64,000 nt of DNA from Lachnospiraceae bacterium (GTDB lineage: Bacteria; Bacillota; Clostridia; Lachnospirales; Lachnospiraceae), in assembly GCA_024680815.1 (NCBI GenBank), contig JAILBQ010000033.1, positions 1 through 64,000 of the forward strand, given 5' to 3'. The notes beneath the pieces were generated by a model. The model saw only the letters and a program-made list of their open reading frames with translations. It was not told the DNA's origin and did no database searches. Of this stretch, positions 48,764-55,405 are shown piece by piece. Numbering within the stretch: position 1 is the stretch's first letter; the number at the start of each line of letters is the position of its first letter. The position numbers were made by a program, and so were the translations under genes.

Positions 48764-48991
48764 TTGAAGGATAATACTATTTTTCGGGAAAAAAATCTGC
48801 AGCGTATTTCCTCCCCTGAACAGCTTAATGACTATATCCGTGTGTCCACACCGGCGCTCTGGATTCTGCTGGTGGCTATTACGCTACTTTTGATTGGGGC
48901 ATTGGTCTGGGCTTCTTTCGGTACGCTGGATGTGCATACCTCCTCTGATACCGTGGAGACGGTTCACCCCATGGAGTTTGTTACCAACTGA
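48764..48991 (+). CDS. Truncated HlyD/NHLM-secretion-protein-like single-TM protein (75 aa)
   Basis: IFREKNLQRISSPEQLNDYIRVSTPALWILLVAITLLLIGALVWASFGTLDV resembles the N-terminus of NHLM bacteriocin secretion proteins; stop right after the TM. Confidence 0.7.
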   Translation: MKDNTIFREKNLQRISSPEQLNDYIRVSTPALWILLVAITLLLIGALVWASFGTLDVHTSSDTVETVHPMEFVTN

Positions 48992-49062: not shown

Positions 49063-49111
49063 ACTAGATAAAATGCTGCTGAAGCAGCGGTTGAAAAAGG
49101 AGGATATGATT

Positions 49112-49393
49112 ATGGTCAACGAATTAAACAAACTCAATGAAAATCAGCTTGAAGATGTAAGCGGCGGCAAACACGACGGCCCTACCCACGGCAGCTGCCC
49201 TGAGGGCGCCATCGAGATGAAGTGGAATCTGGATCATTTCCCCAGCGACAGGAAGGCAAAGCACGGCTGTCCGACCTGCGGAGGAAATTTAAGAGAACAG
49301 AAATTCTGGTTCCAGGACACCGAGAGGCTGCATAACGGCTATATTTGCGAGAGGGACGACAGTCACAGGTGGATTTACGGCGATCCTATCTGA
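49112..49393 (+). CDS. Double-glycine leader peptide precursor with Cys-rich core
   Basis: MVNELNKLNENQLEDVSGG leader then 74-aa core containing CPEG, CPTCGG, CERD; SD AAGGAGG 8 nt before ATG; C39 exporter downstream. Confidence 0.8.
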   Translation: MVNELNKLNENQLEDVSGGKHDGPTHGSCPEGAIEMKWNLDHFPSDRKAKHGCPTCGGNLREQKFWFQDTERLHNGYICERDDSHRWIYGDPI

Positions 49394-49417: not shown

Positions 49418-51613
49418 TTGGAAGAAAACAGTAAAAGTAAAAAGAAGCTGAAAAAACCGATTTCAAGCGGCGTTGCGAAGGTGCCGGTCATCATGCAGAT
49501 GGAGGCACTTGAATGCGGCGCCGCTTCGCTTGCCATGATTTTGGCCTATTACGGGAAATGGGTTACCCTCGAGCAGGCCAGGACGGACTGCGGGGTATCC
49601 AGAGACGGTTCCAATGCCAAGAACATACTTATGGCGGCCAGGAACTATGGCCTCAGCGCGGCGGGATACCGTCTTGAGCCCGAGCAGCTCAGGGAGTTTG
49701 CCACTTTTCCCTGCATCATCCACTGGGAATTCGACCATTTTCTGGTTGTGGACGGATTCAAAAATAACAGGGTTTATCTCAATGATCCGGCAAGGGGAAG
49801 CTACAATATTTCGATGGAAGCCTTTGATGAAGGGTTTACCGGGATATGTCTGCAGTTTGAACCCACTGAAGAATTTGAGCCGGGAGGCAAACCGAAGAGC
49901 GTATTATCCTTTGCGAAAAAACGCCTTGTCGGGACAGGCGCCGCCATTGCTTTTGTGGTTCTTACATCTGTTATCTCGTCTCTTATTGACATCGTCAATA
50001 CCGGTTTGTCCAGAGTATTTATGGATTTTATACTGCCGGGTAATAATCCGGGATGGCTTATGCCCTTTATTATCATAATGGGTGCTCTGGCGGCCATTCA
50101 GATATCGGTTTCCTGGGTAAGCGCAATATATTCCCTTAAAATTAACGGAAAGATGGCCGTGGTTTCCGGCAGTACGTATATGTGGAAGGTGCTCAGACTT
50201 CCGATGGAGTTTTTTTCCCAGAGGATGGCCGGTGACATTCAGGCGAGACAGGCTACCAATGAATCCATAGCGGACACTCTGGTGGGCACCCTGGCACCGC
50301 TCTTCCTGAATACCTGCATGATGGTGTTTTATTTTGTAGTCATGATCCGCTACAGCCCTGTTTTAACCGCGATAGGGCTTATTTCCGTGATAGCTGACTT
50401 CTTTGTCTCCAGGATTGTTTCTGCAAAGCGGGTTAATGTGACCAGAGTACTTATGCGGGATCAGGGAAAGCTTTCCGGAATGACGGTTTCGGGAATAGAG
50501 ATGATCGAGACCATTAAGTCCAGCGGAGCGGAGAACGGCTTTTTTGAAAAGTGGTCAGGATATCAGGCCAGCGTCAATACGCAGAATATCCGATATTCGA
50601 AAATCAATCAGTATCTGGGCCTGATCCCTTCCTCGATATCCGCTGTTACGGACATGGTCATTCTGTTCTGCGGAGTCTATCTGTGCATGAGAGGGCATTT
50701 TACTCTTGGTATGGTAATGGCTTTTCAGACTTTTCTTTCCTCTTTCCTTGCTCCGGCCGGAATGTTGATTTCCGCCAGCCAGATGATTCAGGAGATGCGT
50801 ACGAATATGGAACGCATCGAGGACGTTATGGAATACCCGGTTGCCATTGAGGGAGATAATACCGAGGTCAGGGAGGATGTTGAGTATGATAAGCTGTCTG
50901 GTCAGCTTTCCATGCGCAATGTGACTTTCGGTTATTCAAAACTGGCCCCTCCTCTTATCAAGGACTTTAATCTGGAGCTGAAGAAAGGAAGCAGCGTTGC
51001 CTTTGTAGGAGCTTCAGGCTGCGGAAAATCCACGCTTTCCAAGCTTATTTCCGGTCTGTATTCACCCTGGGAGGGCGAGATTCTCTTTGACGGGAAAAGC
51101 ATTTCAGAGATAGACCGCAGTATTTTTACCGGCTCGGTGGCGGTTGTGGACCAGGATATAATACTGTTTGAGGACACGATTTCCAATAATATCCGTATGT
51201 GGGATTCATCCATTGAGGATTTTGAAGTTATACTGGCTTCCAGAGACGCGAACCTCCATGATGACATTATGCAGAGAGACGGAGGGTATCAATATAAGGT
51301 TATGGAGGGCGGAAAGGATTTTTCCGGCGGTCAGAGACAACGCATGGAAATAGCCAGGGTGCTGGCGCAGGATCCGACGCTTATTATTCTGGATGAAGCC
51401 ACGAGCGCGCTGGACGCACAGACGGAATTTGAGGTAGTGAAAGCCATCCGGGACCGGGGAATAACCTGTATTGTTATTGCCCACAGGCTTTCGACCATAA
51501 GGGACTGCGATGAGATTCTTGTGATGGATCACGGGGATGTTGTAGAGCGCGGAACCCATGATGAACTTATAAAACGCGGCGGAAAATACACGGAACTGGT
51601 TACTTCGGAATGA
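49418..51613 (+). CDS. NHLM/NHLP-type bacteriocin export ABC transporter with C39 peptidase domain
   Basis: VPVIMQMEALECGAASLAMILAYYGKWV (C39 Cys), HWEFDHFLVVDGF, VGASGCGKSTLSKLISGLY. Confidence 0.93.
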   Translation: MEENSKSKKKLKKPISSGVAKVPVIMQMEALECGAASLAMILAYYGKWVTLEQARTDCGVSRDGSNAKNILMAARNYGLSAAGYRLEPEQLREFATFPCIIHWEFDHFLVVDGFKNNRVYLNDPARGSYNISMEAFDEGFTGICLQFEPTEEFEPGGKPKSVLSFAKKRLVGTGAAIAFVVLTSVISSLIDIVNTGLSRVFMDFILPGNNPGWLMPFIIIMGALAAIQISVSWVSAIYSLKINGKMAVVSGSTYMWKVLRLPMEFFSQRMAGDIQARQATNESIADTLVGTLAPLFLNTCMMVFYFVVMIRYSPVLTAIGLISVIADFFVSRIVSAKRVNVTRVLMRDQGKLSGMTVSGIEMIETIKSSGAENGFFEKWSGYQASVNTQNIRYSKINQYLGLIPSSISAVTDMVILFCGVYLCMRGHFTLGMVMAFQTFLSSFLAPAGMLISASQMIQEMRTNMERIEDVMEYPVAIEGDNTEVREDVEYDKLSGQLSMRNVTFGYSKLAPPLIKDFNLELKKGSSVAFVGASGCGKSTLSKLISGLYSPWEGEILFDGKSISEIDRSIFTGSVAVVDQDIILFEDTISNNIRMWDSSIEDFEVILASRDANLHDDIMQRDGGYQYKVMEGGKDFSGGQRQRMEIARVLAQDPTLIILDEATSALDAQTEFEVVKAIRDRGITCIVIAHRLSTIRDCDEILVMDHGDVVERGTHDELIKRGGKYTELVTSE

Positions 51614-51724: not shown

Positions 51725-53923
51725 ATGGGTTGGTTTGACGAACAGATTAAAAAAAGAAAACGGTCTGACTACGAAACCTTTGAGGAGTCGTTTGTCAAAA
51801 TCGCGGGTTCTGTCACGGGCAGGGCGCTCTCCGGTCTTGCGGGGAGCAGCAGGCAGCGGGCTCTCGATGCAATAGGCGAGATCCTGGATTATTACCATGT
51901 GAAGGCCCGCGAGGTTCCGGACTCCATAGAGGATCTTAACGAACAGCTGGAATATCTCCTCCGCCCGTACGGAATCATGCGCAGAAGCGTAAACCTGGAC
52001 GAGGACTGGTTCAGGGACGCCGGCGGCGCCATGCTGGGCAGCTTAAAGGAAGACAACAGCGTTGTGGCATTGATACCGAAAAAATACAACGGCTACACGT
52101 TTTACAACAGTAAAACCGGCAGAACAGAAAACGTCAACCGGGAAAGCTCCCGCCTGCTTAACAAAGAGGCAATTGCATTTTATAAGCCTTTTCCGTTAAA
52201 AAAGATCGGAATCGGCGGACTCTTTCGATATATTTTAGAGAATGTCAGACCGGCGGACGTGGTTCTTGTTGCAGTAATGGCCTTTGTCATAACCCTTGTG
52301 GGGATGATCACCCCCTGGCTCAACAAGTATCTGTTTTCGGATGTAATAGAATCCGGAAATTTAAGAATCCTGTTCGCAACTACGTTTTTCCTGCTGTGCT
52401 CTTCCCTGAGCGCAATGATATTCGGGATGCTGAGATCCTTTCTTTTTGAAAGGATAACCCTGTCACTGGACTTCTGCGTGGAGGCAGCCACCATGATGCG
52501 GGTGCTGTCCCTGCCGGCCTCGTTTTTCAAGGCGTACAGTGCAGGAGAAATATCCAGCCGGACAGGTTATGTAAGCTCGCTTTGTCAGATGCTGATCAAT
52601 ACTGTATTGTCGACCGGATTAACCTCGCTGTTTTCGCTGATGTATCTGACCCAGGTCTCTTTGTATGCGCCCTCACTTTTGATTCCGTCGGTAATAGTGA
52701 CACTGACAACAGTCGTGATTTCTACTGTCACTACCTTTACCCAGATGAAGATCTCAAAAAAGTCCATGGAGACTAACTCGAAGCTGAGCGGCATGAGCTA
52801 TGCGATGATAACGGGAATCCAGAAGATCAGGCTTGCCGGGGCTGAATACCGGGGATTTTCGAGATGGGGCCGTCTTTATGCGGAAGCGAGCAGTTATTCC
52901 TACAATCCGCCAATGCTTTTAAAGATCAGTTCTGTAATCACAACGGCTATAGGGCTGATCGGAACAATAGTTATTTATTACACGGCGGTGATAAACGGGG
53001 TTTCCCTTTCTGAATACTATGCTTTCAACGCGGCTTACGGTATGGTCAGCGGAGCATTTACTTCTCTTGCGGGCATTGTATTTACAATTGCGCAGATAAA
53101 GCCGGTGCTGGAAATGGCAAAGCCGATTCTGGACGCCGAGCCTGAGATTTCCGAGGAGAAGCATGTGGTTACGGAGCTTCACGGCGGGATAGAGGTAAAT
53201 CACGTATCCTTCCGTTATAACGAAAACATGCCTCTTATTTTGGATGACTTTTCTCTTAAAATCAAGCCGGGGCAGTATGTGGCCGTGGTCGGAAAAACCG
53301 GCTGCGGAAAGTCAACCCTGATGAGGATTCTGCTGGGCTTTGAGACTCCGCAGAAAGGTTCGGTGTATTTTGATAACAAAGATATCGCCTCTCTTGATCT
53401 TAAGTCATTGCGACGTAAGATCGGAACGGTGATGCAGAACGGAAAGCTTTTTTCAGGGGATATATATTCCAATATTGTGATCTCCGCCCCATGGCTTTCG
53501 GTAACTGACGCATGGGAAGCCGCCGAAAATGCCGGAATTGCGAATGACATTCACGATATGCCGATGGGAATGTATACTCTTATCAGTGAAGGTCAGGGAG
53601 GGATTTCCGGGGGACAGCGGCAACGTATTATGATTGCCCGTGCTATTGCCCCGAAGCCCCGGATACTGATGTTTGATGAAGCTACCAGCGCTTTGGATAA
53701 TCTGACACAGAAAAAGGTTTCTGATTCTCTGGACAGCCTTAAATGCACCAGAATAGTGATTGCCCACCGGCTTTCCACAATACGGCACTGTGACAGGATC
53801 ATTGTTCTGGAGGGCGGGAAAATAATTGAAGACGGCACGTACGAGGAGCTGATCGCAAGAAAAGGCTTTTTCAGTGAACTGGTCAGGCGGCAGCGGCTTG
53901 ATACGAATGAGGCCGAAAATTAA
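51725..53923 (+). CDS. NHLM/NHLP-type bacteriocin export ABC transporter permease/ATPase subunit
   Basis: N-terminal extension, TM domain, VGKTGCGKSTLMRILLGFETP, ISGGQRQRIMIARAI. Confidence 0.9.
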   Translation: MGWFDEQIKKRKRSDYETFEESFVKIAGSVTGRALSGLAGSSRQRALDAIGEILDYYHVKAREVPDSIEDLNEQLEYLLRPYGIMRRSVNLDEDWFRDAGGAMLGSLKEDNSVVALIPKKYNGYTFYNSKTGRTENVNRESSRLLNKEAIAFYKPFPLKKIGIGGLFRYILENVRPADVVLVAVMAFVITLVGMITPWLNKYLFSDVIESGNLRILFATTFFLLCSSLSAMIFGMLRSFLFERITLSLDFCVEAATMMRVLSLPASFFKAYSAGEISSRTGYVSSLCQMLINTVLSTGLTSLFSLMYLTQVSLYAPSLLIPSVIVTLTTVVISTVTTFTQMKISKKSMETNSKLSGMSYAMITGIQKIRLAGAEYRGFSRWGRLYAEASSYSYNPPMLLKISSVITTAIGLIGTIVIYYTAVINGVSLSEYYAFNAAYGMVSGAFTSLAGIVFTIAQIKPVLEMAKPILDAEPEISEEKHVVTELHGGIEVNHVSFRYNENMPLILDDFSLKIKPGQYVAVVGKTGCGKSTLMRILLGFETPQKGSVYFDNKDIASLDLKSLRRKIGTVMQNGKLFSGDIYSNIVISAPWLSVTDAWEAAENAGIANDIHDMPMGMYTLISEGQGGISGGQRQRIMIARAIAPKPRILMFDEATSALDNLTQKKVSDSLDSLKCTRIVIAHRLSTIRHCDRIIVLEGGKIIEDGTYEELIARKGFFSELVRRQRLDTNEAEN

Positions 53924-54001: not shown

Positions 54002-54505
54002 ATGAATACAGAAGAAATCTATCTTGTCTATCGGGATAAGGTCAGATCGTACATCCGCGCGAGGGTCAGCAATAATGAGGACGCTGAGGATATTTGTTCC
54101 GATGTGTTTTTAAAGGTTCAGAAGCATTTCGGTGAATATGACGCTGACAAAGGGGCGGTATCCACCTGGATTTACGCGATGACACGGAATACGGTAATAG
54201 ATTATTACCGTACCAGGAAGACCTACGAAGAGGTTCCGGAGGAGCTTCCCGTAGAAACGGATCTGGGAGAGGAGCTATACCGGCAGGAGACTCTTCAGGA
54301 ATTGGCGGATGCCATCGATAACCTGACAGAGGAAGAGCGGGATGTGGTGGTGCTTCATTATTATCACGAACTGACACTTCAGGAGATAGCCCTGAAAATG
54401 CATCTGTCATACGGGCAGACAAAGCTTCGGCACAACAGTGCACTTCAGAAACTGGGCAGATCCATGGGGGCAGGAAAAGGCAAAGGCGGATTTCATATTC
54501 TGTGA
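54002..54505 (+). CDS. Sigma-70 family (ECF-like) RNA polymerase sigma factor
   Basis: NNEDAEDICSDVFLKVQKHF...STWIYAMTRNTVIDYYR...LTEEERDVVVLHYYHELTLQEIA. Confidence 0.93.
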   Translation: MNTEEIYLVYRDKVRSYIRARVSNNEDAEDICSDVFLKVQKHFGEYDADKGAVSTWIYAMTRNTVIDYYRTRKTYEEVPEELPVETDLGEELYRQETLQELADAIDNLTEEERDVVVLHYYHELTLQEIALKMHLSYGQTKLRHNSALQKLGRSMGAGKGKGGFHIL

Positions 54506-54547
54506 TTCATAACCACAGGCTGCATGCAGCAGAAAGCAGGGATCGTA

Positions 54548-54742
54548 ATGGTAGAACGGTTAAGAAATCTTTTCGATTTTCAGCGGTTTGAAAGGAATCC
54601 GGGATTGCAGAGGCATATTTCCGCCGTTGAGAAGAAGTATAAGGTCGGCGATATACTTTCTGATGATGCTCTGGAGATGGTCAGTGCCGGAAAGTGTGAG
54701 TTTAATATTATAAACAAGCCGGATGATAATAAGGAAGAATGA
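54548..54742 (+). CDS. Small leader-like protein (64 aa)
   Basis: MVERLRNLFDFQRFERNPGLQRHISAVEKKYKVGDILSDDALEMVSAGKCEFN; LSDDALEMVSAG resembles peptide-precursor leaders. Confidence 0.6.
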   Translation: MVERLRNLFDFQRFERNPGLQRHISAVEKKYKVGDILSDDALEMVSAGKCEFNIINKPDDNKEE

Positions 54743-54775: not shown

Positions 54776-55405
54776 ATGCAGACCGACAAAACATTTGTCA
54801 GCAGTAGCGGAACCGGCGTAGAAAAGGCTTTGGCCCAGAGTGGGCTTTTCAGTCGCACGGAGGGGCTGGCCCGAAAGGATGCAATGCATTTGAGACTTCT
54901 TTCGGAGGAAACCATGGGTATGGTCCGTTCCATTACGGAGGAATTTAATGCCATGTTCTGGATTCAGGGCGACAGAAAAAGCGCGAATGTTTTTCTGGAG
55001 GCGAGGGCTGACATGAACAGGGCGCAGCGGCGGAAGCTCATAGCGTTGTCCACCAACGGACGTAATATGGCTGTTCGGGGTGTGATGGGAAAAATACGGG
55101 AAATTGTGGAAACAGGGATTTCAGACTATGAATTGGTGAACTCTCTGCAGACAGATTACGGCACCGGTACGCTGATGTATGGTTCGATGGGTGGAAACGC
55201 GGCGGATGCCATGTCCCAGGCGGTTTTTTCCTGGTCTCTGCAGCGCTACAGGGACAATATAAAAAACGAAGAAGAAGAGCTGGCAAAAGTGGCGGTCGAT
55301 GAGCTGGAAAAATCCATTGTGGCAAATCTCGCCGATGATATTAAGGTCGGCATCCAGAAGGACAGGGTAGAGCTTTCGCTGGCAATAACATTTTCCGGAA
55401 CATAG
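54776..55405 (+). CDS. Uncharacterised protein (209 aa), possible HATPase-fold-like
   Basis: Good ORF in the sigma cluster; no confident family. Confidence 0.6.
   Translation: MQTDKTFVSSSGTGVEKALAQSGLFSRTEGLARKDAMHLRLLSEETMGMVRSITEEFNAMFWIQGDRKSANVFLEARADMNRAQRRKLIALSTNGRNMAVRGVMGKIREIVETGISDYELVNSLQTDYGTGTLMYGSMGGNAADAMSQAVFSWSLQRYRDNIKNEEEELAKVAVDELEKSIVANLADDIKVGIQKDRVELSLAITFSGT

Follow-up and report, generated by a model that had tools for sequence, protein, structure and literature searches.

A double-glycine-leader precursor with a predicted zinc-ribbon core beside a LahT-type exporter in Lachnospiraceae

RESULTS

A GG-leader precursor lies next to a C39 exporter

The Lachnospiraceae DNA analysed here, a stretch of 64,000 nucleotides from a bacterium of the gut or rumen that we call the window, encodes a small precursor in which a short double-glycine (GG) leader is followed by a 74-residue core, predicted to fold as a zinc ribbon, next to a LahT-like exporter gene. 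The leader, the core and the locus as described below are close to certain, and the cargo is very probably exported by this C39/LahT-type system. The features of the locus are as follows.

48764-48991 (+): minimal HlyD-like adaptor, 75 aa; matches the N-terminal 44 positions of NCBIfam TIGR03794 (E 2.5e-8, below cut-off)
49094-49103 (+): ribosome-binding site AAAAAGGAGG, strong, read from the sequence, 8 nt 5' of ATG 49112
49112-49168 (+): double-glycine leader MVNELNKLNENQLEDVSGG, 19 residues, ending in VSGG
49169-49390 (+): 74-aa cargo, predicted zinc ribbon (family alignment; AlphaFold2 model)
49268-49279 (+): CPTC motif in the cargo, core residues 34-37
49346-49348 and 49364-49366 (+): C-x5-H knuckle in the cargo, C60 and H66
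49418-51613 (+): ABC1, LahT-like PCAT (C39 peptidase/permease/ATPase), 731 aa; TIGR03796, 926 bits, above cut-off
51725-53923 (+): ABC2, partner permease/ATPase without peptidase, 732 aa; TIGR03797, 739 bits, above cut-off
54002-54505 (+): ECF-type sigma factor, 167 aa; Sigma70_r2/r4
54524-54742 (+): possible second short precursor of GA/GG type, 72 aa, ending in LSDDALEMVSAG plus 17 aa (sequence only)
54776-55405 (+): 209-aa protein; other loci have relatives next to GG cargo and exporter genes

The precursor frame (49112-49393, forward strand) is open from the ATG at 49112 to the stop codon at 49391-49393. It is already open from 49073, upstream of this ATG; we take 49112 as the best start because AAAAAGGAGG is placed 8 nt before it. 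The hydrophobic residues at leader positions -4, -7 and -12 are V, L and L, and they are conserved in relatives. The GG protease LahT150 of Lachnospiraceae C6A11, which has been characterised experimentally, no longer cleaves when position -4 is Lys or Asp, cleaves less well after non-conservative changes at -7 and -12, and tolerates very different cores (PMC6363468). The leader models TIGR03793 and TIGR03798 did not match the window precursor, whose leader is short. The initial annotation, which had called the ORF a GG-leader precursor, is borne out: the leader motif is kept in 17 of the 18 members of our family alignments, and the sole member without it is a fragment truncated at a contig end. 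Homologues devoid of a conserved GG leader, which that annotation had named as grounds for dropping the idea, are thus represented by this fragment only. Its proposal that a C39 domain cleaves at VSGG was assessed by homology. ABC1 has intact catalytic Cys, His and Asp motifs, its C39 domain is 69% identical to LahT150 (99 of 143 residues; PDB 6mpz, E 1.4e-66), and the leader residues fit the requirements of that protease. On this comparison, cleavage after VSGG by the neighbouring C39 domain appears well supported.

All genes of the locus run in one direction, in the order short HlyD-like gene, precursor, ABC1, ABC2, ECF sigma factor, possible short precursor and 209-aa protein, followed in the same direction by possibly linked MBOAT (DltB-like) and DltD-like genes; 24 nt separate the precursor stop from the ABC1 start. 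The 75-aa HlyD-like adaptor has a cytoplasmic N-terminus, one membrane segment and the conserved C-terminus VHPMEFVTN (HPxxFVxN). Among the HlyD-like genes of exporter loci in the genus, 17 of 45 encode at most 110 aa with this same C-terminus and the other 28 encode 111-200 aa, all far below the 421 positions of the NHLP HlyD model. We therefore rejected the idea that the 75-aa gene is a truncated pseudogene, short forms being common in the genus. Sigma factor homologues come after ABC2 in two other loci (L155, L161). Relatives of the 209-aa protein occur in 31 of 397 genomes of the family, and the one at L272 is flanked by a GG zinc ribbon and ABC2, with an RsbW-like gene close by. When the large ORFs of the window were read through, no LanM, YcaO, radical-SAM or other modification enzyme and no zinc uptake gene was recognised, and the window shows no evident immunity gene. 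Elsewhere, DUF975 membrane proteins adjoin GG cargo (L162:2262-2948, L181:10895-11620) and may have an immunity or partner function. The window genome, a 2.86 Mb assembly of 145 contigs, also holds a second NHLP-type exporter locus (L097, G000:C122), with a full-length HlyD (368 aa), a larger ABC2 and, close by, a sigma factor.

The core is a predicted zinc ribbon with a three-Cys, one-His metal site

The cargo has four Cys, at core residues 10, 34, 37 and 60. In the 18-member alignments A2 and A3, which comprise the window protein and 17 relatives from the same genus, C34, C37, C60 and W68 are invariant. At the fourth ligand position 15 of the 18 members have Cys; the other three, namely the window protein, L224 and L219, have His in the arrangement C-x5-H. 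In contrast, C10, the Cys of the CPEG/CPxG motif, is missing from several relatives and is for that reason probably not a ligand. The likely metal set is probably C34, C37, C60 and H66, that is, three Cys and one His. That His can stand in for Cys at one ligand fits a metal site rather than a disulfide.

AlphaFold2, run on alignment A3, returned a model with a mean pLDDT of 81 and a pTM of 0.66. Its strands span residues 41-48, 53-60 and 67-70 and lie after CPTC (34-37), before C60 and after H66, respectively, a placement that in the model is that of a three-stranded zinc ribbon. Alignment and model together present two metal knuckles joined by a beta hairpin. The best PDB sequence matches of the family profile were RNA-polymerase zinc-ribbon proteins (3p8b, 1qyp and RPA12), all of them weak, with E 0.016 for the RPB9-type 1qyp; the weak matches include 4c2m. 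Curated Pfam and NCBIfam zinc-ribbon models gave only sub-threshold matches, none above cut-off, and a Foldseek search with the ribbon model returned no significant PDB match; absence of Foldseek significance is common for such tiny folds. We consider it quite probable, as a prediction, that the core is a metal-binding ribbon.

The initial annotation had described a zinc-ribbon-like core with four Cys. The ribbon part of this description agrees with the predicted fold, whereas the four Cys do not form the likely metal set, in which H66 takes the place assigned to C10. The same annotation had set the core apart from a pore-forming helix and had proposed a structure prediction; the model, mostly beta with a metal site, agrees with it on the first point and on the second supplies the three-stranded ribbon.

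Relatives are found in the genus, and close orthologues are under purifying selection

Single-sequence searches with the core alone, including searches of genome contigs, found no clear homologue. L008, a full-length match in the first family-wide single-sequence search (which was mostly noise), was set aside: it shares only the leader, and its core is SH3-like. Of the 48 genomes of the genus, 42 have ABC1 orthologues, often several each. We picked 60 genus loci by ABC1, and not by cargo, and then listed their GG-leader ORFs. Five of these loci encode a protein of the window precursor's kind and gave alignment A1, the profile of which has members in 17 of the 48 genomes. Profile searches, which the initial annotation had recommended for the core, in this way yielded the 17 same-genus relatives. 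The proteins most similar to the window protein are those of L224 and L219 (43-44% identity). Several relatives are located away from any exporter gene, so pairing with an exporter is not always local. A plasmid search returned no match for the family.

Between close orthologues (L179/L180/L183 and L168/L210/L173) dN/dS is roughly 0.05-0.12, which indicates a maintained, real protein. Together with the occurrence of the same layout in 17 of 48 genomes, this places the precursor beyond chance. Purifying selection on type A orthologues also makes a rapid arms race less likely in this subfamily. Directly after type A cargo we observed a secreted protein of about 960 aa (L225:9184-12051, L226:8934-11852, L168:9010-11898); the L225 copy has InlB B-repeats and Big_2.

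GG and Nif11-type leaders carry zinc ribbons and other small folds

Of the 60 loci selected by ABC1, 23 contain a GG-leader ORF. A two-knuckle zinc motif is present in 12 of 22 distinct GG cores of at least 35 aa vs 14 of 343 other small ORFs of the same loci (Fisher p 4e-10), with the reservation that some of the 12 cores are orthologues of each other and the effective number is lower. Several unrelated ribbon types are represented, at L155 (three per locus), at L162/L174/L181, at L156, at L201 and as the second cargo of L225-L227. Outside the genus, ribbons form tandem arrays behind GG/Nif11-type leaders, with four in a row in G012 (L260:6446-7863) and three in a row in G252 (L261:376-1485), which has two more elsewhere. 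No C39 exporter gene was recognised beside these two arrays. The leader of the G012 array scores above the Nif11 cut-off. Leaders of array paralogues are 85-88% identical vs 35-41% for their cores; dN is 0.02-0.08 for leaders vs 0.50-0.55 for cores in G012, and 0.05-0.16 vs 0.42-0.90 in G252. GG-leader ribbons are also found in other families of the class (G700, G512). The initial annotation had presented a novel precursor; its layout of GG leader and ribbon stands, while its singularity does not, since the protein is one member of a diverse class. Relatives that share this design of tag plus zinc ribbon occur across the family and seem to form a class of small exported proteins that is new and so far undescribed.

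The same leader type also precedes unrelated cores within the same loci. An OB fold is predicted for the GG cargo at L162:3319-3594, L172:2178-2510, L178:5731-6006, L225:1439-1720 and others; Foldseek matched OB-type cargo to IF-1, ribosomal S12 and PAN OB domains with a probability of about 1.0 but E values of only about 0.01-0.05. SH3-like cargo behind this leader type was found at L008 and at L259, the latter in the window's own genome, which has at least three further GG precursors away from the present locus, two on C68 and one on C7:

L258:8757-9591: two Cys-rich GG cargos, window genome, C68
L259:3676-3999: SH3-like GG cargo, window genome, C7

Among the genes linked to the exporters are response regulators (10 loci), a STAS factor (5 loci), sigma factors and, at six loci, the large InlB-repeat surface protein family mentioned above. 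The regulator links suggest that export is regulated, perhaps in a density- or stress-dependent manner.

DISCUSSION

Taken as a whole, we think it likely that the window precursor gives rise to an unmodified, exported zinc-ribbon protein that acts outside the cell. In this scheme, the leader would bind the C39 domain of the neighbouring LahT-like ABC1, the precursor would be cut after VSGG, and the 74-residue cargo would leave via ABC1, for which homology suggests ABC2 and the minimal HlyD-like adaptor as partners. CPTC and C-x5-H would hold a single metal ion, probably zinc, round which the cargo would fold as a predicted TFIIS/RPB9-like zinc ribbon. Once outside, it could act as a small structured effector or signal. 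We favor an effector or signal over metal capture for two reasons: the pathway also serves metal-free cargo, and paralogous cores vary where their leaders do not. Our best guess, a tentative one, is an antagonistic, bacteriocin-like action on other cells, suggested by the divergence of paralogous cores behind fixed leaders and by the occurrence of cargo in mixed sets.

A cytosolic zinc-ribbon protein, ending its first 19 residues in VSGG by coincidence, would be in keeping with the usual intracellular location of zinc ribbons, with the RNA-polymerase ribbons among the best profile matches and with the relatives that are not beside an exporter. We regard it as very improbable, since every complete relative has the GG leader despite considerable variation in the core, the same leader type also precedes unrelated cores at these loci, and array leaders are far more alike than array cores. 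A disulfide-bonded or enzymatically modified (RiPP) peptide, with the Cys residues serving cross-links and not metal, would account for a Cys-rich core. LahT-type exporters do handle lanthipeptides (PMC6363468), radical-SAM-like genes adjoin some exporter loci of the genus (L202-L204), and NCBIfam files the Nif11 leaders of related ribbons as RiPP precursors. Yet the large ORFs of the window include no recognised LanM, YcaO or radical-SAM enzyme, a Cys to His change at the fourth ligand suits a metal and neither a disulfide nor a thioether, and the main type keeps the zinc-ribbon spacing of two CxxC knuckles, so that cross-linking seems improbable.

The remaining alternatives accept an exported ribbon and differ in its purpose. 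Metal capture by a protein zincophore, in place of antagonism or signalling, would make sense of one metal site per small exported protein and of several copies per genome. In the anaerobic, reducing conditions of a gut or rumen, both the export of a Zn-thiolate site and its presence outside the cell are plausible. We nonetheless find this purpose quite unlikely: none of the large ORFs of the window was recognised as a zinc uptake gene, and OB-fold and SH3-like cargo without a metal site uses the same leaders, so metal capture is not the common purpose. For a component of the cell surface or matrix, or a community signal, there is a precedent in the GG-secreted small proteins that enable biofilm formation in Synechococcus (PMC4997328), and the regulators, STAS and sigma factors and InlB-repeat proteins linked to the exporters would fit such a role. 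Against it, these neighbours differ between loci, several may be unrelated, and the window has no InlB-repeat protein beside the cargo; on balance we hold such a role to be rather unlikely. Returning to the exported effector, a broader and doubtful extension is that LahT/NHLP-type exporters of Lachnospiraceae and other Clostridia export small folded domains (ribbons, OB and SH3-like) on interchangeable GG/Nif11 leaders. In this extension the ribbon would be a variable scaffold, and the folds would resemble those of transcription and translation because the cargos are effectors against other cells.

A double-glycine leader is usually taken to signal a bacteriocin or a modified peptide. In the proteins described here, such leaders repeatedly precede what are predicted to be small folded metal-binding domains, in several genera and families, which would widen the range of cargo thought to be exported by C39 exporters. 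Genome mining thereby gains a target that current family models miss, and the role of abundant gut and rumen exporters becomes directly testable with an existing protease, LahT150. There are precedents for C39 exporters with unmodified small-protein cargo (PMC6959990), for variable precursors handled by LahT (PMC6363468), for the NHLP/Nif11 systems (PMC2887384) and for biofilm proteins secreted with a GG leader (PMC4997328). In the open-licence literature we found no earlier account of zinc-ribbon cores that follow a GG or Nif11 leader.

Among known systems, PCAT1 of Clostridium thermocellum likewise is a C39-ABC exporter with small-protein cargo; its substrate CtA, a 24-residue GG leader with a 66-residue cargo, is cut and exported (PMC6959990). 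By its published description, the CtA cargo is flexible in the transporter (PMC6959990), whereas the present cargo belongs to a conserved ribbon family, and the window exporter, unlike PCAT1, is an NHLP/LahT-type system that includes ABC2 and a minimal HlyD-like adaptor. Closer is LahT with LahA1-9 of Lachnospiraceae C6A11 (PMC6363468), which shares the 69% identical C39 domain, related GG leaders, the same recognition residues and diverse cores. The LahA precursors, however, belong to a lanthipeptide cluster, while the window has no recognised lanthionine synthetase and encodes a core resembling a folded metal-binding domain. NHLP/Nif11 systems (TIGR03793/TIGR03798; Haft et al. 2010, PMC2887384) have the same exporter families (TIGR03794, 03796 and 03797) and combine a conserved leader with hypervariable cores, and some zinc-ribbon relatives have a Nif11 leader above cut-off; the window leader, in contrast, is short and fits neither leader model. 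In that study zinc is mentioned only for modification enzymes and not for cores (PMC2887384). With class II bacteriocins and microcins the precursor has in common the GG leader and the type of exporter, but class II bacteriocins have a short, often helical, membrane-active core, and the 74-aa core in the window is predicted to be mostly beta with a metal site. The ribbons of TFIIS, RPB9 and RPA12 are similar in their CPxC, two-stranded hairpin, C-x2-C (C-x5-H in the window) and aromatic W, a similarity that falls below any family cut-off; they differ in being intracellular transcription proteins without a leader.
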